Positions 3,475-28,462 of a DNA stretch of 38,562 nt are shown piece by piece. The notes beneath the pieces are model-generated. The model made no database searches, was not told the origin of the DNA, and was given only the letters and a program-made list of their open reading frames with translations. Source of the DNA: a virus; IMG/VR virus record IMGVR_UViG_3300009788_000196, positions 1 to 38,562 of that record, one strand, 5' to 3'. A program made the translations under genes and the position numbers. The stretch's first letter is position 1, and every line of letters begins with the position of its first letter.

Positions 3475-3503
3475 ATTCTACTCTTAATACTAGCCTAAGT
3501 CAA
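3475..3503 (-). promoter_or_regulatory. Promoter with TAGGCTAGTAT operator (accessory operon)
   Basis: The minus strand carries TTGACT (3503-3498), a 17-bp spacer and TAGAAT (3480-3475). The shared motif TAGGCTAGTAT (3497-3487) fills the spacer directly after the -35 box. It drives the three-gene cassette 3414-2780. A small CCCT/AGGG hairpin lies in the leader. Confidence 0.75.
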
Positions 3504-9741: not shown

Positions 9742-9774
9742 AGTCTAATATTACTCTCCATTTTTAATGGAATA

Positions 9775-9860
9775 ATATACACTGTCCGGCGTCGACCCGG
9801 CGAGGTAGGCATTATACCTTTAAGCCTAGAAGCCTTTCTCCTTGCTCCCTCAGTGCATAT
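9775..9860 (-). ncRNA. Cloverleaf-like structured leader RNA of the terminase operon
   Basis: Read on the minus strand, a 10-bp closing helix forms between 9860-9851 (ATATGCACTG) and 9784-9775 (CAGTGTATAT). One pair is G.U, which is only a mismatch on the other strand, supporting a minus-strand RNA. Inside are three arms: GGAG/CTTC (9848-9845 with 9832-9829), TAGGCTTA/TAA-T-GCCTA (9828-9821 with 9814-9806), and CCGG/CCGG around the 7-nt loop GTCGACG (9796-9790). The predicted promoter places +1 at about 9858, the very base of the closing helix. It is not a standard tRNA: the T-arm has 4 bp and there is no CCA end. Confidence 0.55.
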
Positions 9861-9864
9861 ATCA

Positions 9865-9893
9865 ATAATAGCCTATTTATGATTGATTTTCAA
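9865..9893 (-). promoter_or_regulatory. Promoter of the terminase operon
   Basis: The minus strand carries TTGAAA (9893-9888), a 17-bp spacer and TATTAT (9870-9865). A one-mismatch copy of the shared motif, TAGGCTATTAT (9875-9865), overlaps the -10 box instead of abutting the -35 as in the other promoters. Confidence 0.65.
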
Positions 9894-9897
9894 GTAT

Positions 9898-10080
9898 CTA
9901 CTTCTTTGTAAATCTTAATTCTATAACATTATAAGGAACTGTACTTTCATTGAACTCACTTAATAAATGAAGATTACACAATTCTTTTATTGTCATATCT
10001 GATTTAATATCTAAAGCTATAGATACTTCTCTTCCATGATCTCCAAGATTTTGCACTGTTTTTAATATTGCATTTATCAT
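9898..10080 (-). CDS. Hypothetical 60-aa protein, paralogue of 11912-12112
   Basis: It shares VQNLGDHGREVS and the following AL..(6)..TI.EL pattern with the 66-aa protein at 12112-11912, and the two genes share about 33 identical bases over that block. It starts as part of an AAATAGATG junction 4 bp after the previous stop. Function is unknown. A conserved polar His/Asp/Glu block suggests a ligand or protein contact rather than a structural role. Confidence 0.6.
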   Translation of the reverse strand: MINAILKTVQNLGDHGREVSIALDIKSDMTIKELCNLHLLSEFNESTVPYNVIELRFTKK

Positions 10081-10084
10081 CTAT

Positions 10085-10264
10085 TTACTCTCCTTGTTTA
10101 TAATAAAAATCTCTTATATATCCTATGCTTCTTTTATGCCAATAAGTAAGCCAAAATATCTGTAAAGTTCTGTACCATGCTATTCTTGGTAAACATTCCA
10201 ATGTCCCTTGACTGTTAGTTTTTACATAAGCATTGTTACTCATAATTACTAAATCGCCTATCAC
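10085..10264 (-). CDS. Hypothetical 59-aa basic, aromatic protein
   Basis: A GTG at 10264 follows an AGGGGG site, and an internal ATG at 10243-10241 would give a 52-aa form. It is rich in Trp, Tyr, Arg and Lys (RIAWYRTLQIFWLTYWHKRS). It ends 4 bp before the next start. Unrecognised; real translation is likely from the spacing but the start is uncertain. Confidence 0.5.
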   Translation of the reverse strand: MIGDLVIMSNNAYVKTNSQGTLECLPRIAWYRTLQIFWLTYWHKRSIGYIRDFYYKQGE

Positions 10265-11919: not shown

Positions 11920-12112
11920 CTGTATTCTCCAATGCTTTAGCCAATCTTATTTCTATATGATTATTATATGCCGGAAGTTCAGGATACGGATTAAACAAGG
12001 TTAAATTGACTAATTCCTGAATAGTTATTTTTGGATCAACTTCTAAGGCTGTGCTTACTTCTCTTCCATGATCTCCAAGATTTTGCACTTCACATAATAT
12101 TATACTTATCAT
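11912..12112 (-). CDS. Hypothetical 66-aa protein, paralogue of 9898-10080
   Basis: It contains VQNLGDHGREVSTALEV, shared nearly unchanged with the protein at 10080-9898; the DNA is identical over about 33 bases there. It starts in an ATGA overlap with the upstream gene stop (12112-12109). Function unknown; the duplication lies 2 kb apart in one operon. Confidence 0.6.
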   Translation of the reverse strand: MISIILCEVQNLGDHGREVSTALEVDPKITIQELVNLTLFNPYPELPAYNNHIEIRLAKALENTDE

Positions 12113-12492
12113 CTATTTACACCTTCTACTTTTTCTATTAAATCCATAGCTTTATAATATTTAGTAACACCTTCTTCATTTTTTTTTATAGGATTAACCA
12201 TTAACGCCATATCATTTAAAGCATATAATAGCTCTCTATTCTGCTCTTCCAGTTTCTTTATTTTATTATCTCTATTGTTTATAATATGGTTTAATCCTTT
12301 TTGAAGTTTATTTATGTTTATTTCATACCGTTCTACCTGATCGCCTAAATGTAAATTGTGTTGTAATGCTTTCTTATGCCATCCATGTAGTTTTTTAAAT
12401 AGATTATCTTGTCTTTCAATATCTGAATATTTTACCCATTCAATATCCGGTTCTTCACAAAATATCATATTAGTATATTTATATCGTTTCAT
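12109..12492 (-). CDS. Hypothetical 127-aa coiled-coil protein
   Basis: First gene after the 12.5 kb promoter. The N-terminal half is aromatic and charged; residues about 60-90 form a heptad-rich helix (NINKLQKGLNHIINNRDNKI). No family recognised. Its position as promoter-proximal gene of the leftward early operon suggests early host takeover or regulation. Confidence 0.65.
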   Translation of the reverse strand: MKRYKYTNMIFCEEPDIEWVKYSDIERQDNLFKKLHGWHKKALQHNLHLGDQVERYEININKLQKGLNHIINNRDNKIKKLEEQNRELLYALNDMALMVNPIKKNEEGVTKYYKAMDLIEKVEGVNR

Positions 12493-14038: not shown

Positions 14039-14052
14039 AAATCACCTCAAAT

Positions 14053-14161
14053 AAAAAAGGCACTCAATATACCCGGCTTGCGCGAAAGACGCTTGGCGAC
14101 TTCCCCAGGTATATCAAATGCCCTTATAACTTAATATCTTCACGCAAGAAAAGATACCCTA
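14053..14161 (-). ncRNA. Candidate small structured RNA ending in a U-run
   Basis: From a predicted +1 near 14161, the minus strand first gives a TATCTT/AAGATA hairpin, then a long hairpin: AAGGGCA (14125-14119) with TGCCTTT (14062-14056), and ATATACC (14114-14108) with GGTATAT (14073-14067). The apical part contains a GCG/CGC hairpin. It ends in TTTTTT like an intrinsic terminator. Promoter, compact structure and U-run together suggest a free RNA of roughly 110 nt, or a terminating leader of the acidic-protein gene. The apical GGGGAAGTCGCCAAGCG resembles a tRNA acceptor and D-arm start, but no T-arm exists. Confidence 0.55.
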
Positions 14162-14167
14162 TACTTA

Positions 14168-14196
14168 ATAATACACTATCTGTCATATTGTTTCAA
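14168..14196 (-). promoter_or_regulatory. Promoter for the 14.1 kb RNA
   Basis: The minus strand has TTGAAA (14196-14191), a 17-bp spacer and TATTAT (14173-14168). The -35 box overlaps the stop codon of the methyltransferase-like gene. The shared TAGGCTAGTAT motif is absent. Confidence 0.6.
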
Positions 14197-18164: not shown

Positions 18165-18347
18165 ATGGAAAGTTTCGCAGAGTTTTTAAAGGATGCTAAA
18201 GATAAGCTCAAAATGAATAGAATGGAGTTTGCTTCATTGTTAGGATATCCAATAGATACAGTGACAAAATACTATCAGGGATACTTTATGCCGTCTAAGG
18301 AAAAGCAAAAAAAAATTATCAGGATTATTAAGAAGGCTTTAGGATGA
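18165..18347 (+). CDS. Small HTH (XRE/Cro-like) regulator
   Basis: The protein is 60 aa; the SD is AAGGAG, itself part of the promoter inverted repeat. Residues about 17-50 (LKMNRMEFASLLGYPIDTV) fit an XRE-type helix-turn-helix. There is no extra dimerisation or effector domain, much like Cro-sized regulators. It lies downstream of the divergent promoter pair carrying two copies of the motif found at most phage promoters, so it is the best in-window candidate for the factor that binds them. That link is inference. Confidence 0.7.
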   Translation: MESFAEFLKDAKDKLKMNRMEFASLLGYPIDTVTKYYQGYFMPSKEKQKKIIRIIKKALG

Positions 18348-18538
18348 TATGCCATAATTGTGGAATAGTGGAATTAGGAACAGCAGATACATACGGACTT
18401 TGTTATAAATGTAAACCTAACTCACAGTATCCTACTGTGTATAATCCCGGTTGGGTATGTCCTAAATGTGGAGCTGTATACGGCCCATTTGTTCATGAAT
18501 GTGGACGTTGTAATGGCCCTATGGAAATAACCTGTTAA
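18344..18538 (+). CDS. Double zinc-ribbon protein, 64 aa
   Basis: Four CxxC-type pairs: CHNCG (3-7), CYKCK (20-24), CPKCG (39-43) and CGRCN (53-57). It is coupled to the HTH gene by an ATGA overlap. It may bind DNA or an RNA polymerase subunit together with the HTH protein. Its stop codon overlaps that of the opposing holin-like gene in a shared TTAA, so no terminator fits between the two operons. Confidence 0.65.
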   Translation: MICHNCGIVELGTADTYGLCYKCKPNSQYPTVYNPGWVCPKCGAVYGPFVHECGRCNGPMEITC

Positions 18539-21087: not shown

Positions 21088-21116
21088 TTGACAGGGTTAG
21101 GCTAGTATGATACATT
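21088..21116 (+). promoter_or_regulatory. Rightward early promoter with shared operator
   Basis: TTGACA (21088-21093), 17-bp spacer, TACATT (21111-21116). TAGGCTAGTAT lies at 21098-21108 within the spacer. The 13 bases TAGGCTAGTATGA are shared exactly with the promoter at 22856. Confidence 0.8.
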
Positions 21117-21144: not shown

Positions 21145-21348
21145 ATGAACGAATCAATCCTAATTAAAACAGTTACCGATAATATCAAATCACTCAAAAA
21201 AGATCTGAAATTCTGGGAAAATACAGGGCATAGAGATGATCAAACAATACATACTATTGAAACTATAAAAGAAGATATCAAAAATGAGCAGTGGAAAATT
21301 AATCAGGTTAAGAAGAGTATTGAAAGATCTTTCTTTAAAGGAAAATAA
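21145..21348 (+). CDS. Hypothetical 67-aa coiled-coil protein
   Basis: First gene of the rightward operon, behind AAGGAG. Lys/Glu/Asp-rich and helical (NIKSLKKDLKFWENTGHRDD), possibly a coiled coil. No family recognised. Confidence 0.6.
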   Translation: MNESILIKTVTDNIKSLKKDLKFWENTGHRDDQTIHTIETIKEDIKNEQWKINQVKKSIERSFFKGK

Positions 21349-21349
21349 C

Positions 21350-21592
21350 ATGTTTCATGAAACTAGCCGTATATTTACAATAAATACAGTAATGATCAAC
21401 GGTAAAGAATATCAGGTAAAACGAGTTTCCTATTATGTTATGAAAGCTTCAAGATGTGGATATAAATATATTTACGGTTGGGAATTATGGAACAAAGGTA
21501 AATATATTAAAGGTGGTATTTCTCATGATTCTATAACAGAATCTAATTTTCCGATGTATCCTACACTGAAATTATTATTAGAAGATAAATAA
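21350..21592 (+). CDS. Hypothetical 80-aa protein
   Basis: The start is set at ATG 21350, 1 bp after the upstream stop with AAGGA upstream; the longer frame from 21284 is a shadow. It is basic and rich in Tyr and Gly (MKASRCGYKYIYGWELWNKG), suggesting a small beta fold. No family recognised. Confidence 0.55.
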   Translation: MFHETSRIFTINTVMINGKEYQVKRVSYYVMKASRCGYKYIYGWELWNKGKYIKGGISHDSITESNFPMYPTLKLLLEDK

Positions 21593-21626
21593 ACCCCTCA
21601 CATAGAGGATATAAGGAGAAGGAAGT

Positions 21627-21791
21627 ATGAAAGAATATATTTTAATTACAATAATAATTATTTGTTTTGCTATTATTCAAGTGCAACATTTTACATTAAA
21701 ATATTCAATGCAATCAAATAGAAATGTTATTACAGAAACTATATCTACATTGAAAGTAGTTGCAGATTATGCCTATTCACTAGATAAATAG
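21627..21791 (+). CDS. 54-aa single-pass membrane protein
   Basis: AAGGAG precedes ATG 21627. Residues 4-18 are hydrophobic (ILITIIIICFAIIQV), followed by a polar helix. It ends just before the long structured non-coding region. No family recognised. Confidence 0.5.
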   Translation: MKEYILITIIIICFAIIQVQHFTLKYSMQSNRNVITETISTLKVVADYAYSLDK

Positions 21792-22256
21792 ATTCAAATA
21801 TCCTGTATGGGATTAAATGAATAACCTAATACATCACGGTGTATTAGTTCACGAATTTTTTAGTCGATACAAAAGAGTTAATTTTCAATTTATGGCAGTT
21901 CCTAAAACAAGCCGAGATCTTTTCACATGTGATTTATTGTAGTTCGTACACAGGGAGGCCGTGAACTCCCTACTATTGGTCAATATATTTTTTTAATAGG
22001 TTCGTTGTGAACCAAGGATAGAAGAATCCAAAAACAGCGGTAGCAAGGGCGCAAAGATAAGCGCAAAGGTTTACACGGTTCTTGGAGGAAAGCCAAGGGG
22101 ATGCACCTATTATCTACCAAACTATTAGTGGTTAGCCGTGCATTGAAAAAGATAATAAGCAGGGTTTGACTCCCTGTCTTGCTAAAAGGGCAAAAGCAGA
22201 AATTAGCAAGCCCGCCTTAACCGGGGATAGGCTCCCGGACTTTTAAGGAGATAACA
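21792..22256 (+). ncRNA. Large structured RNA / riboswitch-like leader of the RusA-like gene
   Basis: No gene is seen in these 465 bases. Plus-strand pairings: CTAATACA/TGTATTAG (21826-33/21840-47); AGGGAG/CTCCCT (21952/21966); GGTTC/GAACC (21999/22009); TAGCAAGG (22041-48) with TCTTGCTA (22177-84), enclosing GCGC/GCGC, CTTGG/CCAAG (22081/22093), a pseudoknot made by ATGCAC/GTGCAT (22101/22138) and TATTATCT/AGATAATA (22108/22150), and a T-arm-like CAGGG-TTTGACT-CCCTG (22160-76). TTAGCAAG (22203-10) competes for the same CTTGCTAA (22178-85). CCTTAA (22215-20) with TTAAGG (22243-48) around CCGGG/CCCGG masks the AAGGAG ribosome binding site. I could not assign it to a known class. Confidence 0.6.
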
Positions 22257-22649
22257 ATGGAAACTGAACCATGTATTTTTATTTTACCATTATTTGTAAC
22301 ATTACCCAGGAAAAGAAACCCTGACAAAAAGGTTATGCTTAATTTGAATATCTATAGAAATATGCATTTCCAAGTTAATAATCAAGTTAAAGAATTATTT
22401 AAGCCGATTTCTATATATGCCTTCAGAGCTGAAGTAATAGAAATATCTTACACAGTTTATAAAACTACTAAACGAAAATATGACACCATGAATATAATAT
22501 CTATTGTTGACAAGTTTTTTCTTGATTGGTTAGTTGAAAATAATTATCTACTTGATGATACTTGTTTAAATGTGAGATATGGAAGTATAGAAGGGAAAAA
22601 TGATTGCTCTGAAAATAATGTAATAGCAAGCATAAAGATTTTAAAATAG
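22257..22649 (+). CDS. RusA-like Holliday junction resolvase
   Basis: The protein is 130 aa. The C-terminal half has YDTMNIISIVDKFFLDWLVE followed by NNYLLDD, matching the RusA plan D-x-D/M-N...K...D...DD, where the acids bind metal. It resolves branched recombination or replication intermediates and fits with the ERF and YqaJ genes downstream. Sequence is diverged, so the call rests on motif spacing. Its AAGGAG site lies in a hairpin at the end of the structured leader, suggesting translational control. Confidence 0.65.
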   Translation: METEPCIFILPLFVTLPRKRNPDKKVMLNLNIYRNMHFQVNNQVKELFKPISIYAFRAEVIEISYTVYKTTKRKYDTMNIISIVDKFFLDWLVENNYLLDDTCLNVRYGSIEGKNDCSENNVIASIKILK

Positions 22650-22657
22650 AGGTTGTT

Positions 22658-22852
22658 ATGTATAAAAGGAAATACGAAAAAGGTCATAAGATAACAAGCA
22701 TGGAAGAATTATCTTTCTGGTTGTGGAAAGAGGAATGGATATATTACCGGCATAAAGCTATGCATCCCGGATGGATTGAAAGTATGACTTTTAGATCCTT
22801 AAAGATTGCAATAGAGAAAGATTATTTATTCATAGCAAACTTAGTAAAATAA
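22658..22852 (+). CDS. Hypothetical 64-aa aromatic protein
   Basis: Follows the resolvase gene by 8 bp with a weak site. Rich in Trp, Tyr, Lys and Glu (LSFWLWKEEWIYYRHKAMHP). No family recognised. The next promoter begins within a few bases of its stop. Confidence 0.55.
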   Translation: MYKRKYEKGHKITSMEELSFWLWKEEWIYYRHKAMHPGWIESMTFRSLKIAIEKDYLFIANLVK

Positions 22853-22855
22853 TAC

Positions 22856-22884
22856 TTTACATTACTAGGCTAGTATGAGATAAT
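22856..22884 (+). promoter_or_regulatory. Promoter with shared operator (recombination operon)
   Basis: TTTACA (22856-22861), 17-bp spacer, GATAAT (22879-22884). TAGGCTAGTAT at 22866-22876 in the spacer, same offset from the -35 box as in the 21.1 kb promoter. Confidence 0.8.
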
Positions 22885-22913
22885 GAAGTATATCAATTTA
22901 AGGGAGATAAAGA

Positions 22914-23090
22914 ATGATGACAAAAGAATTAAATCCAGAAATTAAAAGCAAACTATCAGAGTTAATAGAAACTATTGCTGTCACTCACATAATAGGTAAA
23001 CCGGCACTACTAGCTACTTGTATGTTTTTCTCCACGGAAAAGTTTTTAATTGAACAGATAAATGAAATCGAAACAACATTCAAAGATTAA
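22914..23090 (+). CDS. Hypothetical 58-aa protein
   Basis: Two consecutive ATG codons (22914, 22917) follow GGGAG. Helical with a hydrophobic centre (IAVTHIIGKPALLATCMFF). First gene after the promoter. No family recognised. Confidence 0.5.
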   Translation: MMTKELNPEIKSKLSELIETIAVTHIIGKPALLATCMFFSTEKFLIEQINEIETTFKD

Positions 23091-23101
23091 GGGAGAAGTA
23101 A

Positions 23102-23254
23102 ATGAAACGTAAAAGTTTAGGCAGATGGCCGAGCAAAGGCACCATGTGGAATAAAGGAACAAAAATTAGAAATAAAGGTCAATTGTTACGTTGTCGGCCT
23201 ATGGTTTTTATTGGTAAAAAAATTATGAGTATGGGTGAAAAGGAGTATGTATGA
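23102..23254 (+). CDS. Hypothetical 50-aa strongly basic protein
   Basis: GGGAG precedes ATG 23102. Many Lys/Arg (MKRKSLGRWPSKGTMWNKG), no acidic stretch, so nucleic-acid binding is plausible. Its stop overlaps the ERF gene start as ATGA. Confidence 0.5.
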   Translation: MKRKSLGRWPSKGTMWNKGTKIRNKGQLLRCRPMVFIGKKIMSMGEKEYV

Positions 23255-24018
23255 AAATGGAAGTTGTATCAGAAAATAAAATTGTACCTAAAAAGAAACC
23301 TGCTGCAAAGAAGAAATCTGTTGCAAAAACAAAGGCCGTAACAGTTCAGAAAAAACCATTACAATCTGAATCAGGCGCATTATTGAAAATGGCAATTGAT
23401 AAGGATCTTGATGTTGATAAGTTAGCTAAAATTATAGATATGAATGTAGAAGAGAAAAAGAGACAGGCAAAAGCAAACTTTGATTTACATTTTGCCAAAA
23501 TGCAAGCGGAATTTCCACCAGTTAAAAGATCAAAAGAGGGATACGGATATAATTACACACCTCTTGAAGTCATGCAAAATAGCCATAATCCAATTATTAC
23601 AAAGCATGAATTTTCTTACAAATGGAAAGAAGAATCTTTAGAGAATGGGAAAAAGATAATCCTGATAATCAGCGGTTATGGCCATGATGATAAAACCTCT
23701 TTTGACGTTCCTATTTTACAGGCAACTAAACAACAAAATGCAGTACAGGTATTAGGTAGCATGACGACATACGGAAAACGTTACACATTTGTATCTGGTT
23801 TCGGTGTTACAATCGAAGATGAAGATGATGATGCAGCAAGCCTAACTTTTGCCGATGGTGTTCAATATGCACAACAGGTTCAGTGGTTAGAATCCTGTGA
23901 GACTAAAGAGGATCTTATCAAAACATGGAAAGAGATTTACAAAGAACTTGGTAATGATAAAGTTGGATTGCAGATTCTTACTGTCATCAAAGATAAACAG
24001 AAAGGAAAAATCAAATGA
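23251..24018 (+). CDS. erf: ERF-family single-strand annealing protein
   Basis: The protein is 255 aa. A Lys/Ala-rich N-terminal tail (KKKPAAKKKSVAKTKAV) precedes the ERF core: FAKMQAEFPPVKRSKEGYGY, YTPLEVMQNSHNPIITKHEF and GSMTTYGKRYTFVSGFGV. It anneals complementary single strands in phage recombination, paired with the exonuclease encoded just downstream (4-bp overlap). The basic tail resembles histone-like repeats and may bind DNA. Confidence 0.88.
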   Translation: MKMEVVSENKIVPKKKPAAKKKSVAKTKAVTVQKKPLQSESGALLKMAIDKDLDVDKLAKIIDMNVEEKKRQAKANFDLHFAKMQAEFPPVKRSKEGYGYNYTPLEVMQNSHNPIITKHEFSYKWKEESLENGKKIILIISGYGHDDKTSFDVPILQATKQQNAVQVLGSMTTYGKRYTFVSGFGVTIEDEDDDAASLTFADGVQYAQQVQWLESCETKEDLIKTWKEIYKELGNDKVGLQILTVIKDKQKGKIK

Positions 24019-24638
24019 TCTATACAGATATTATTCAAGGTACTCCTGAATGGCATGATATCAGGAGAGGGAAAATTACAGGTTCTAAGACAGTTAGAAT
24101 AGTCCCAGGTGTTAAGGGTAAATATCTTGCAAGTCGGAAAAATTATATGGCTAAATTAATATGTGAGATTTTAACAGGTGAAACAGCCGAGGAATTTATA
24201 TCTGAAGAAATGCAATGGGGAACTGATAACGAACCTTTAGCAAGATCGGCCTATGAAGCTATAACCGGTAATTTTGTTGATGAGGTTGGATTCATTGATC
24301 ATGATATAATTCAATTATTTGGATCTTCACCGGATGGGTTGATAGGTGAAGATGGTAGCATTGAAATTAAATGTCCTAATACTGCCACTCATATTGATAC
24401 ATTGATTAACGGTAAAGTTAAACGGGATTATATTTATCAAATGCAAAGTTTAATGATGTGTGGTAATAGACAATGGTGTGATTTTATATCTTTCGATCCT
24501 CGACTCTCTAACAATCTACAATTATCTATCAAGCGGTTTAATCGGGATGAGGTTATGATTGCTGAAATCACAATGGAAGTTGAAAAGTTTAAAAGTGAAT
24601 TATCAGAAATGCTAAGAAAGCTCAAGGAGATAAAATGA
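24015..24638 (+). CDS. YqaJ-type recombination exonuclease
   Basis: The protein is 207 aa of lambda-Exo/YqaJ type: GTPEWHDIRRGKITGSK (9-25), MQWGTDNEPLARSAYE (about 65-80), FGSSPDGLIGEDGSIEIKCP (about 98-117, holding the D-x(n)-ExK metal site) and DYIYQMQSLMMCGNRQWCDF. It chews 5' ends to expose single strands for the ERF protein. Coupled to ERF by an ATGA overlap. Confidence 0.9.
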   Translation: MIYTDIIQGTPEWHDIRRGKITGSKTVRIVPGVKGKYLASRKNYMAKLICEILTGETAEEFISEEMQWGTDNEPLARSAYEAITGNFVDEVGFIDHDIIQLFGSSPDGLIGEDGSIEIKCPNTATHIDTLINGKVKRDYIYQMQSLMMCGNRQWCDFISFDPRLSNNLQLSIKRFNRDEVMIAEITMEVEKFKSELSEMLRKLKEIK

Positions 24639-24817
24639 AATACAGAAAAGATGTAGATTTTAGTGATGAAGAACAAGCCGAAGGATATATTAATGAGATA
24701 GAAGATTTAATTAATAATGCATTAGATTTATTAGATAATATTTTAAAAATAGAAGATTTATCTAATGTAGAAGAATGTAGAGATATTCTAAAAGAAATCG
24801 CAACTGCTATTTATTAA
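24635..24817 (+). CDS. Acidic 60-aa protein after the exonuclease
   Basis: ATGA overlap with the exonuclease. Very acidic and helical (DFSDEEQAEGYINEIEDLIN). Could be a partner or inhibitor of a nuclease; no family match. Confidence 0.55.
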   Translation: MKYRKDVDFSDEEQAEGYINEIEDLINNALDLLDNILKIEDLSNVEECRDILKEIATAIY

Positions 24818-24827
24818 AGGAGATCAA

Positions 24828-25823
24828 ATGAACGATTTATTAGTACAGGAAACTGAACAGTTAAAAGGATTGGATGAGAGTAAAGCAAAACAGATAAAAG
24901 CTGTATTTGATCCAATGGTTAAAATGTTGGAAGGGTTTGAGGATTCTTTTAATGGTATTATTGCCCTTGATATATCACCTAAAAAATGTGTCCTTGCAAA
25001 AAGGCTCCGGCTTGATATTTCTAAAATCAGAGTAAGTGCCGATAAGGAAAGGAAAATTTTAAAAGAAGAATATTTAAGGGGAGGCAATGCAGTCCAGGGA
25101 GTTTATAATATTCTGAAATTTGCAGTTGTTGACAAGGAAGAAAAACTCAAAGATATTGAATTGCATTATGAAAAAATTGAGGAAGAAAAGAAAGCAAAAT
25201 CACAGATTGATAGAGCCTTGGAATTATCTAGATATGAGGCAAGTGGTGAATTTGTAGATCTCGGTAATATGCCTGATGAAGTCTGGAATAATTACCTTGC
25301 AGGTGTAAAGAATAATTATGAGGCAATCAAAGAAGCTGAGAGAAAAGCTGAAGCCGACCGGATAGAACAAGAAAAAAAGGAAGCTGCTGAACGTGAAGCC
25401 ATGAGAGCCGAAAATGAAAGACTTAAAATTGAAGCAGAAAAGGCAGAGAAAAAAAGAATTGCTGAACAGAAAAAACTTGATAAAGCAAAAGCCTTACAAG
25501 AAGAAAAGCTCAGGATTGAAAGAGAAAAAGTTGAAGCTGAAAAACGGATACAGGATGAGATTATCAGAAAGGAACGTGAAGCCAAAGAAAAACTCGAAAG
25601 AGAAATACAGGAAAAAGAAACTGAAAGATTAAGACTTGAAAAAGAAGAATCTGACAGATTAAAAGCTGAACAGAAAAAAGCCAAAAATGCACCCGATAAA
25701 CAGAAGCTTGAAAAGCTTGTATTCTATATGGAAGAAATCGGTAGAGGTCTTAAAGGTGAAGAGGCTAAGGAAATTGTCAGAGAAGCGTATCGGCTGATTA
25801 AAGGGTTCAGTAAAAACCTATGA
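24828..25823 (+). CDS. Long coiled-coil protein in the recombination operon
   Basis: The protein is 331 aa behind AAGGAG. The first 130 residues are globular and helical; residues about 150-290 are an almost continuous Glu/Lys/Arg coiled coil, and a short helical C-terminus follows (YMEEIGRGLKGEEAKEIV). Similar proteins (DUF1351-like) often lie near phage recombination genes, function unknown. Long A-rich codon runs create many spurious frames on the other strand. Confidence 0.7.
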   Translation: MNDLLVQETEQLKGLDESKAKQIKAVFDPMVKMLEGFEDSFNGIIALDISPKKCVLAKRLRLDISKIRVSADKERKILKEEYLRGGNAVQGVYNILKFAVVDKEEKLKDIELHYEKIEEEKKAKSQIDRALELSRYEASGEFVDLGNMPDEVWNNYLAGVKNNYEAIKEAERKAEADRIEQEKKEAAEREAMRAENERLKIEAEKAEKKRIAEQKKLDKAKALQEEKLRIEREKVEAEKRIQDEIIRKEREAKEKLEREIQEKETERLRLEKEESDRLKAEQKKAKNAPDKQKLEKLVFYMEEIGRGLKGEEAKEIVREAYRLIKGFSKNL

Positions 25824-26329
25824 AAATCTTAATCCTTGAAAAAGAACAATACATGGTGGAGTCGAAAGACTCCCCAATAATCGGCAGACATTACAATCTT
25901 GAAGATGCTGACAGTGGTACGGCTGCACAAAACAAAGCATTTCACGCACTACTGAATGAATACTATATATCAGGTATGCATAGTTATGATAATGTGGATC
26001 TTGTCCAATTCAAGAAGCTGATTAAAAAGAATCTTGGTGCAGGTTTTGAATCGTTTGTTTATGCTGAAATTGAAGCTGAAGTAGTTGGCGATGCGGTAGA
26101 GTATAATGCCAGAATTCATAGTGTTAAAAAGTTTAAAGACCTTCCTGAGTATATTAGGCAAGATTCAGATATGGATTTAATGGTAAGAGGCAAATTAAAA
26201 TCATGGGCAGACTACACAAAAAAAGAACGTATGAAAACTATGGATAATCTAATCTCTGAAATGCATCAGGTCGGGATTAACTCGAAAAAGTTTATGGAAA
26301 TTCTGGAGGGAATGGAAAATGATGATTAA
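25820..26329 (+). CDS. Hypothetical recombination-module protein, 169 aa
   Basis: ATGA overlap with the coiled-coil gene. The middle has GTAAQNKAFHALLNEYYISG and later KLKSWADYTKKERMKTMDNL, a plan also seen in NinB-like or other phage recombination accessory proteins. I cannot confirm the family. Soluble, mixed charge. Confidence 0.6.
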   Translation: MKILILEKEQYMVESKDSPIIGRHYNLEDADSGTAAQNKAFHALLNEYYISGMHSYDNVDLVQFKKLIKKNLGAGFESFVYAEIEAEVVGDAVEYNARIHSVKKFKDLPEYIRQDSDMDLMVRGKLKSWADYTKKERMKTMDNLISEMHQVGINSKKFMEILEGMENDD

Positions 26330-26483
26330 AGAATATACAAATGGTAAATGGCGTTTGCGGTGTGGCCAATGTAATAGAATTTCTATAACGATAGATTACA
26401 ATATATTTCCATCATATATGAAGTGTATGTGTTGTGGTTATAAATCCTTGACATTTAAAGTACGGAAAACAAATGATGGATAA
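26319..26483 (+). CDS. Small zinc-ribbon protein, 54 aa
   Basis: Overlaps the end of the previous gene in another frame, starting at ATG 26319 or 26322 behind GGAGGG. CGQCN (Cys15, Cys18) and CMCCGY (Cys36-39) form a likely zinc ribbon. Ends inside the next gene's start. Confidence 0.55.
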   Translation: MMIKEYTNGKWRLRCGQCNRISITIDYNIFPSYMKCMCCGYKSLTFKVRKTNDG

Positions 26484-26655
26484 AGATATAATAAACGCTC
26501 TCAACTTTGAAATGGTTCATTTAAAAAAAATGGGAATATTATGGCCTAAACGAGAATTGATTAAATCAATAGGTTATAAATGGTATTTGTTATTTTGGAA
26601 AAGAAATTATCTAATGCAAAAAGAAATATTAAGGAGAGTTTGGAGTGAAGGATAA
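26473..26655 (+). CDS. Hypothetical 60-aa basic protein
   Basis: Starts in an ATGATG overlapping the zinc-ribbon gene. Basic, aromatic C-terminal half (IGYKWYLLFWKRNYLMQKEI). No family recognised. Confidence 0.5.
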   Translation: MMDKDIINALNFEMVHLKKMGILWPKRELIKSIGYKWYLLFWKRNYLMQKEILRRVWSEG

Positions 26656-26983
26656 AGAATTTGAACAGCTTGTACATATGTACACTATCCATAATCATAA
26701 ATGCTTTGTAACAGGAAACCAGGCAACACAAAGAGCGCATATAATCGGCAATACTTTATCTAATAGAAAATTGTACGGTAAACGGATAATTGACAACTGG
26801 CTAAATTGGCTTCCTGTAGACTCTTTAAAATCAAATGCACTTGTAGATGTTGGTAATAATCAATTATTAAAAGAGAAGGTTGCTTCTATCATAGATTCAC
26901 TAATGGATACTGCTGATAAACGGGATGGGATAGAAGGGTTGGTAATTGAAAATATCGCACGTAAGCAGGGGAAAGTTCATTGA
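26645..26983 (+). CDS. HNH-like nuclease-fold protein, GTG start
   Basis: The protein is 112 aa from GTG 26645 behind AGGAGAG. CFVTGNQATQRAHIIGNTLS and IIDNWLNWLPVDSLKSNALV resemble the HNH plan in which the first His follows a C..TG..A.RAHI pattern and an Asn follows. Only one Cys of a normal zinc pair is present, so activity is uncertain. Possibly a phage nuclease or a homing-type gene. A promoter follows its stop. Confidence 0.5.
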   Translation: MKDKEFEQLVHMYTIHNHKCFVTGNQATQRAHIIGNTLSNRKLYGKRIIDNWLNWLPVDSLKSNALVDVGNNQLLKEKVASIIDSLMDTADKRDGIEGLVIENIARKQGKVH

Positions 26984-27001
26984 CTATCCTGTGTTTACCT
27001 A

Positions 27002-27047
27002 TTGACCATTGAACGCTAAAAACGTATAATTACATACAGGGCTGTAT
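27002..27047 (+). promoter_or_regulatory. Strong promoter with palindromic operator before the RHH gene
   Basis: TTGACC (27002-27007), 17-bp spacer, consensus TATAAT (27025-27030). A perfect palindrome ATACAG-GG-CTGTAT (27034-27047) covers the expected start site. It suggests autoregulation by the RHH-like protein. The TAGGCTAGTAT motif is absent. Confidence 0.75.
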
Positions 27048-27066
27048 ACAAATTAAAGGAGTTAAG

Positions 27067-27291
27067 ATGAATACAACGTTACATATTGATAAGGATCTGG
27101 AAAACAGTATAAAAACCCTTTTATCGGGAACTGAAACCGTAAGTCAATTCTGTTTCAAAGCTACTGTATCACAGGTTAAAAGATTAGAAGCAAGGAATGA
27201 AAGGGCAAGATTGCAGATGATGGAAAAGGATAGATCTATAGTCGAACCTATCATAATGGATATCCTTAGAGGGCAAGGAGTAATAGAATGA
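27067..27291 (+). CDS. Ribbon-helix-helix-like regulator, 74 aa
   Basis: AAGGAG precedes ATG 27067. The start TTLHIDKDLENSIKTLLS is a short beta strand then helix, as in RHH/YlcI-type proteins, and the rest is helical. Together with the palindrome in its promoter an autoregulatory DNA-binding role is likely. No toxin partner is evident next to it. Confidence 0.6.
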   Translation: MNTTLHIDKDLENSIKTLLSGTETVSQFCFKATVSQVKRLEARNERARLQMMEKDRSIVEPIIMDILRGQGVIE

Positions 27292-27677
27292 GAGAAATAA
27301 AGTTTAGAGCATGGGATGAGATCGAGAATGAGTATATCTACGAGCCTATAGAGTTTGAAATGAGACGCCTAAATAGAGCTGTTATAATAGATAAAACATG
27401 GATAGGCTACCACCAAAGTGAATCTTTTACTATGGAACAATACACCGGCTTAAAAGATAAGAACGGTAAAAAGATATATGAGGGTGATATTGTAACATTT
27501 AAAGATATCTCTGCTTTTCCATTAGATCAATACCAAAACTGTGAGGTTGTATGGATAGAGCATAAATCTTCTTTTATGCCAAGAGATAAAGAGCAGAACC
27601 ATAGAGCAGGTTATTATTTACATTTTTGGGATCAATTAGAAGATATTGAAATAATTGGAAACATCCATGAACAATAG
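27288..27677 (+). CDS. YopX family protein
   Basis: The protein is 129 aa. REIKFRAWD at the start, MEQYTGLKDKNGKKIYEGDI (about 49-68) and IIGNIHEQ at the end are the YopX hallmark. The family is widespread in phages of low-GC bacteria, with an SH3-like beta-barrel and unknown function. Overlaps the RHH gene by 4 bp. Confidence 0.88.
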   Translation: MREIKFRAWDEIENEYIYEPIEFEMRRLNRAVIIDKTWIGYHQSESFTMEQYTGLKDKNGKKIYEGDIVTFKDISAFPLDQYQNCEVVWIEHKSSFMPRDKEQNHRAGYYLHFWDQLEDIEIIGNIHEQ

Positions 27678-27894
27678 ACAAGCAACATTTGCACTATTAA
27701 ATAATATCCCTGTAATGAAAAGATTCTACAGTCAGAACCTACGTAATGTTGTATGTCGAAAAACAGGCAATCAGCCGTTTGTTGGAACTTGTCTGAGATA
27801 TTTGAGATTGTGGAATACTGAACAGGTGAATAAAAAGGCGGTTTGCATTTCTAAAAGTAAAAGTTTATATCAGATTCAAGGGAGAGAAATATGA
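27667..27894 (+). CDS. Hypothetical 75-aa basic protein
   Basis: Starts at ATG 27667 inside the end of the YopX gene in another frame, with only a weak site, so translational coupling is likely. Basic (FYSQNLRNVVCRKTGNQPFV). Family unknown. Confidence 0.5.
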   Translation: MNNRQATFALLNNIPVMKRFYSQNLRNVVCRKTGNQPFVGTCLRYLRLWNTEQVNKKAVCISKSKSLYQIQGREI

Positions 27895-28010
27895 AAGAAT
27901 ACTTTAAGGAATTATTTAGTACTCAGGAATTTTATATAGGAGTATTGGTAGGTACTACAATGATGACAATTGCAATGTGTATCAATTTAATTATAGAGGG
28001 GATAATATGA
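27891..28010 (+). CDS. 39-aa single-pass membrane peptide
   Basis: ATGA overlap with the upstream gene and with the downstream lipoprotein gene. Residues 15-37 are hydrophobic (YIGVLVGTTMMTIAMCINLII). The double coupling supports translation. Might be a spanin or holin-like partner of the lipoprotein; unproven. Confidence 0.5.
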   Translation: MKEYFKELFSTQEFYIGVLVGTTMMTIAMCINLIIEGII

Positions 28011-28462
28011 ACAGAAACGAAAACGACAAGCGAACATTTTGTTATATGATATCATTATTGATTATAGTGATAATAACTATTGTCATGATTTCGTTACAAG
28101 GTTGTTCTAATGAAGAGCCTATATTTGAATATGGCGTTATAGGTTATTCGAATAATTTAATTAAACTCGAATCAGAGACAATGGTAGTTCTTGATAACGG
28201 GATGGGACACTTTGACAAGTGGTTTCTTTCTGAAGGAATTACTTTTGAATTGATTGTGCATGAAATTGATGACTATGTACGATTCTATGATACGCCTGAT
28301 TTCACCGTTTCGTCAGATAGGATTTATACAGTAGGTGAAGGCCGTGATCATGTAACTGATTTCACGGCTTTAAATCCACCCGTTGATTTATATTACTTTT
28401 CAATGGATGTTATTATCAATGGCGTTAGTAATACTATTGATTATGTAATTGACAGTAATTAA
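28007..28462 (+). CDS. Lipoprotein, 151 aa
   Basis: Start at ATG 28007 behind GAGGGG. A signal sequence (MISLLIIVIITIVMISLQGC) ends in the lipobox LQGC with Cys at about 33. The mature part is beta-rich and acidic. It could act in superinfection exclusion or as an outer-membrane spanin; it is longer than usual o-spanins and sits far from the lysis genes, so exclusion or host-surface alteration is more likely. Its stop overlaps that of the opposing tail gene in TTAA. Confidence 0.7.
   Translation: MNRNENDKRTFCYMISLLIIVIITIVMISLQGCSNEEPIFEYGVIGYSNNLIKLESETMVVLDNGMGHFDKWFLSEGITFELIVHEIDDYVRFYDTPDFTVSSDRIYTVGEGRDHVTDFTALNPPVDLYYFSMDVIINGVSNTIDYVIDSN

Follow-up and report, generated by a model that had tools for sequence, protein, structure and literature searches.

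A structured intercistronic RNA with a predicted tRNA-like cloverleaf upstream of a RusA-like gene in a tailed phage

What is carried by 465 nt of phage DNA that lie directly before a recombination gene and encode no protein of their own? We addressed this question in a 38,562-base virus record (the window, meaning the whole stretch of DNA analysed), which comes from a tailed phage according to its terminase, portal and head genes and has an overall G+C content of 34.7%. Most genes between 500 and 20,929 point leftward; a rightward block spans 21,145-28,462, and beyond it the orientation is leftward once more. A small two-gene unit at 18165-18538 (+), with a weak match to a transcriptional-regulator family followed by a 64-aa frame, opposes the leftward genes around it. 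The region at 21792-22256 falls within this rightward block. A 54-aa frame of unknown function precedes it and the gene for a RusA-like resolvase follows it, downstream of which lie genes for an Erf-like annealing protein and an exonuclease (Table 1). An earlier reading, made by a model from the letters alone (the sequence-only reading), had described the region as free of genes and rich in complementary segments. Both descriptions were borne out: no genes are predicted between 21791 and 22257, no substantial open frame is found there, and all of the pairings that it named exist at the positions it gave.

Composition and folding both set the region apart. The G+C content is 0.44 at 21940-22256 and 0.42-0.46 at about 21980-22220, while neighbouring genes lie at 0.24-0.28; we counted this G+C island in AT-rich DNA in favour of a structured RNA, which such an island suits. 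Compared with dinucleotide shuffles, the whole 465 nt fold modestly better (z about -1.9 to -2.25), and 21940-22256 ranks first in stability among 256 plus-strand stretches of equal length. Five perfect helices of at least 8 bp were observed, with 1.2 expected (0.6% of shuffles). The minus strand is roughly equally foldable, as expected for long helices. Predicted structure extends over more than 300 nt and includes several possible pseudoknots; the CGTGAACT strand of the long-range helix, for example, falls mostly inside the loop of a hairpin formed by AGGGAG (21952-21957) and CTCCCT (21966-21971). The sequence and the comparisons with chance support a structured non-coding RNA with two predicted competing helices.

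Table 1 Features of the structured region and its surroundings, in window coordinates.
Feature	Position	Strand	Details
Likely promoter of the RNA-bearing transcript	21088-21116	+	TTGACA, 17 nt, TACATT, extended -10; consensus scan and repeated TAGGCTAGTATGA
Non-coding intercistronic region	21792-22256	+	No ORF of at least 50 aa, short stop-to-stop frames only; G+C 0.40
8-bp hairpin	21826-21847	+	CTAATACA/TGTATTAG
Long-range 8-bp helix	21846-21967	+	AGTTCACG (21846-21853)/CGTGAACT (21960-21967); single-sequence pairing only
tRNA-like cloverleaf, whole domain	22041-22184	+	144 nt; unconstrained minimum-energy fold of 22035-22256
Acceptor-like stem, 5' strand	22041-22047	+	TAGCAAG; 7 bp with 22178-22184
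D-like arm	22049-22064	+	GCGC-AAAGATAA-GCGC; 4 bp, 8-nt loop; pair probability 0.98
Anticodon-arm-like hairpin	22081-22097	+	CTTGG-AGGAAAG-CCAAG; 5 bp (extendable to 7), 7-nt loop; pair probability 0.92-0.95
H-type pseudoknot of the variable region	22101-22157	+	ATGCAC/GTGCAT and TATTATCT/AGATAATA
T-arm	22160-22176	+	CAGGG-TTTGACT-CCCTG; 5 bp, 7-nt loop; pair probability 0.99
Acceptor-like stem, 3' strand	22178-22184	+	CTTGCTA; one base past the T-arm; next base A; no encoded CCA
Competitor strand	22203-22210	+	TTAGCAAG; partner CTTGCTAA (22178-22185)
Ribosome-site hairpin	22215-22248	+	Pair probabilities 0.92-1.0
RusA-like Holliday junction resolvase gene	22257-22649	+	130 aa; PHROG matches, E 9.5e-17 to RusA-like family

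The best lead was an aside in the sequence-only reading, that a T-arm-like hairpin adjoins a helix as on the 3' side of a tRNA, as the surrounding sequence is predicted to form a complete tRNA-like cloverleaf. The fold resembles a tRNA in its 7-bp acceptor, which stacks, with one base between, on a T-arm of 5 bp whose 7-nt loop is of the T type. The D-like arm begins one base past the acceptor 5' strand, and a 16-nt insert separates it from the anticodon-like arm. In the variable region, ATGCAC/GTGCAT (22101-22106/22138-22143) interleaves with TATTATCT/AGATAATA (22108-22115/22150-22157), and the resulting pseudoknot encloses a short ACCA/TGGT hairpin (22116-22119/22129-22132); in the cloverleaf fold of 22035-22256, one of the two pseudoknot helices is present as a stem. 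A pattern search matched an identical T-arm on a viral contig (L181), where it is part of an actual tRNA-Lys; the T-arm is thus compatible with real tRNAs. Its loop has U in place of the canonical tRNA C56, and by inspection of this single sequence we conjecture that this U56 could pair with the A of GA in the D-like loop, replacing the usual G19-C56 pair. The loop AGGAAAG at 22081-22097 places GAA (phenylalanine) at the anticodon position, without U33, and an A follows the acceptor.

How readily would such an arrangement arise by chance? In minimum-energy folds, acceptor, T-arm and D-arm occurred together in 0 of 5000 shuffles, and acceptor and T-arm alone in 3. Because the motif descriptor was chosen after the sequence had been seen, the chance figures overstate the case somewhat: the full motif (Watson-Crick stems, T-loop consensus) appeared in none of the 100,000 shuffles of the region, and 1500 shuffled windows contained it 3 times (about 0.002 per shuffled window), and with G-U pairs allowed it was far less rare, at 17 of 20,000 regional shuffles and 0.17 per shuffled window. 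Among 303 other loci (3.2 Mb), the sole match of at least 100 nt was at the lowest level, acceptor plus T-arm alone, and no other match had a D-like arm and a span of at least 95 nt. The pseudoknot was rejected as evidence in itself, showing no excess over chance: an equal or better one was present in 427 of 4000 regional shuffles (10.7%), and the whole window holds 26 pseudoknots as good, with 22.7 expected. The significant part is the combination of T-arm and acceptor, which the sequence-only reading mentioned only in passing.

No known RNA class accounts for the region. An Rfam search, which the earlier reading had named as its first check, returned no match at the gathering threshold and no relevant one when E was relaxed to 10; specifically, covariance models of ROOL, GOLLD, group I and II introns and HEARO had no match at either level. 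ARAGORN predicted neither tRNA nor tmRNA genes (0 of both), and relaxed settings gave scattered, inconsistent calls only. Of the tRNA hallmarks, GG is missing from the D-loop (AAAGATAA), U33 from the loop AGGAAAG and CCA from the 3' end, where the flank reads AAAAGG. Given these absences and the negative ARAGORN and Rfam results, we call the domain tRNA-like rather than a tRNA. Three further candidates were rejected: a tmRNA, as there was no ARAGORN or Rfam match and no tag reading frame was identified; an HDV-type ribozyme, suggested by the strand order of the pseudoknot, as inspection showed that P4 is missing and that the joining strand offers no candidate for the catalytic C; and a group I intron, suggested by AAGATA before the last strand, as there was no Rfam match and no recognisable core.

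Relatives were sought by blastn against phages and plasmids, by DNA patterns in viral and genome contigs, by nhmmer on fetched loci and through the flanking genes, with the RusA-like, exonuclease, terminase and Erf-like proteins as queries. A one-sequence covariance model was also run against 100 sources and against 796 genomes, 398 from each of two phyla, the large-sample genome search using stricter filters at which weak matches could be lost. No homologue of 21792-22256 was found in the phage, viral, plasmid or sampled genome collections. Patterns, profiles and the covariance model yielded chance or explained matches only (for one pattern scan, among the matches listed). L092-L094 were chance matches with no further similarity; the tRNA-Lys contig was set aside, its match being a true tRNA with an identical T-arm; a hit in one of 398 genomes (L305, E 2.6e-4) proved to be the end of a response-regulator gene with a terminator-like hairpin; L306 was coding sequence; and a weak nhmmer match (L187) lay far from the seed and had heavy composition bias. 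Close relatives of the neighbouring genes were absent from the viral collection (for the exonuclease, among the matches listed); two relatives of the terminase (85% and 65%) were on short contigs that stop short of this region, and the 85% identity of the closer one indicates that sister phages exist.

The promoter-like site at 21088-21116 stands before the first rightward gene, with a near-copy at 22856-22884 before the next gene group, and no plus-strand terminator was found between them. With two such similar promoters and no terminator between, the RNA most likely lies within the first early, rightward transcript and is made with it as one unit. The repeated element TAGGCTAGTATGA, between the -35-like hexamer and the -10, occurs exactly at 21098 and 22866 (+), with near-copies at 3485 and 12517 (-).

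We propose, with a probability of roughly one in three, that the domain is a tRNA-like processing or control element in the early phage transcript. Through mimicry, the stacked acceptor/T-arm helix would be shown to the host machinery that handles tRNAs, most plausibly RNase P, which might cleave the transcript at the acceptor's 5' boundary, near 22041, and so part the RusA-like cistron from the small genes that precede it. The cloverleaf would fold first, before 22203-22210 are made; once they are made, the acceptor 3' strand could pair downstream and the mimic would dissolve, limiting the time or the fraction of transcripts in which it is recognised. The RusA-like gene would stand behind a hairpin of its own that covers half its ribosome site. 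The predicted acceptor probability is about 0.97 prior to transcription of the competitor, and in the ensemble of 22035-22256 the acceptor stands at about 0.55 versus about 0.43 for the competitor.

Recognition by the tRNA machinery, cleavage and an effect on RusA output are steps that we infer, and recognition by the tRNA-processing machinery, RNase P first of all, would be the simplest role for a tRNA-like domain at this position. The acceptor/T-stem helix expected of an RNase P substrate is present in the sequence and its predicted fold, and both phage RNAs and tRNA-like structures with pseudoknots are among the reported substrates of RNase P (PMC12710915). However, its cleavage of a pseudoknot model substrate depended on a 3' RCCA (PMC12710915), and the lack of RCCA here weakens the RNase P reading. 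Also standing against mimicry are its derivation from a single sequence, the competitor hairpin, which prevails in the full 465-nt fold, the missing U33 and D-loop GG, and the 16-nt insert. A bolder form of the proposal, which we regard as unlikely, is a new class of phage RNA: a tRNA mimic, pseudoknotted in its variable region, that can be switched off. Within the early transcript it would engage the host tRNA machinery, be it RNase P, a synthetase or defence enzymes that cut tRNAs, until a downstream strand dissolves its acceptor.

Several other explanations bear on the same evidence. The region may instead encode a free-standing structured RNA that belongs to no described class, is built around a tRNA-like core and works in trans as a scaffold or as a decoy for host factors that bind or cut tRNAs, being made with the early operon by chance. 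The extent of the predicted structure, its several possible pseudoknots and the want of an Rfam family suit such an RNA, and ROOL and GOLLD, large structured phage RNAs without known function, offer a precedent (PMC12286853). The surroundings argue the other way, as neither a strong promoter nor a plus-strand terminator was found around the region, which abuts the RusA-like gene and whose last hairpin includes the ribosome site; we consider a trans-acting RNA improbable.

That last hairpin is the centre of a further explanation, an ordinary intercistronic leader in which it alone matters, lowering translation of the RusA-like gene through AAGG, and the cloverleaf is incidental. The sequence-only reading had claimed that it covers AAGGAG of the RusA-like gene, and indeed CCTTAA/TTAAGG (22215-22220/22243-22248) pairs the AAGG of this motif (22245-22250). 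The hairpin is among the most certain elements predicted, and AAGG is covered in every modelled state: with the acceptor or the competitor forced, its predicted unpaired probability does not exceed 0.02 in one state or 0.07 in the other. A simple leader would nevertheless leave unexplained about 400 nt of GC-raised, unusually stable sequence together with a cloverleaf, and seems doubtful to us.

Less likely still is a feature of the DNA or a relic without RNA function, such as the remnant of a captured tRNA or foreign insert, an attachment site, or the repeats of an operator or origin. The G+C content unlike that of the neighbours, short words that recur directly or inverted (GTGAAC/GTTCAC and TAGCAAG, for example), and the identical T-arm of a real tRNA are all compatible with such an origin. 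However, both strands of the cloverleaf stems and the stacked T-arm are intact, unlike the partial tRNA of an attachment site or a decaying gene, and there is no repeat array.

The sequence-only reading had seen riboswitch logic in two exclusive folds beside a masked ribosome site. The competing helices stand, but the predicted pairing of the ribosome site is barely affected by them: as its hairpin overlaps neither the acceptor helix nor the competing hairpin, the accessibility of AAGGAG is nearly constant, and the modelling does not support a ribosome-site riboswitch step from exclusive helices. A metabolite riboswitch controlling the RusA-like gene is accordingly very unlikely, despite one strand common to two helices of nearly equal stability, given also that no known riboswitch family and no plus-strand terminator was found and that the gene is not metabolic.

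Other structured or repeated sites occur in the window. On the minus strand, a very stable long hairpin with a T run at its end (14039-14192, z -4.37) lies downstream of a DNA methyltransferase gene and resembles an intrinsic terminator whose tip is elaborate. The leader of the terminase small-subunit gene (9742-9897, minus) is predicted to fold into a closed junction (z -1.7 to -2.4) and has no Rfam match; it may be a site for packaging or another structured leader. A 109-nt direct repeat, 77% identical, occupies 9980-10088 and 12012-12120, 2 kb apart.

Mimicry of tRNAs is a familiar property of plant RNA virus ends and a less familiar one inside the messenger RNAs of DNA phages. If real, the proposed processing or control element would be a tRNA-shaped phage switch that times the processing of a recombination gene or baits host tRNA enzymes, and it is small enough for direct in vitro work. 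Among known systems, ROOL and GOLLD are likewise large, pseudoknot-rich, phage-encoded RNAs of no known function, although the RNA here is shorter, has no Rfam match and lies in a window with no tRNA genes. A tmRNA shares the tRNA-like acceptor/T-arm end and a pseudoknot between the halves, whereas here there is one short pseudoknot and no tag frame was identified. Canonical tRNAs, including class II tRNAs with a long variable arm, share the acceptor-T-arm stack, a D-like arm, a 5-bp arm with a 7-nt loop and the A past the acceptor; unlike them, this domain spans 144 nt, has the insert and a pseudoknotted variable region, and lacks U33, the D-loop GG and CCA. Viral tRNA-like structures, such as the TYMV 3' end, differ in bearing the pseudoknot in the acceptor rather than the variable region and in having a terminal CCA, absent from this element internal to a DNA-phage transcript; what they and the phage RNAs cut by RNase P have in common with it is the viral imitation of a tRNA with a pseudoknot.
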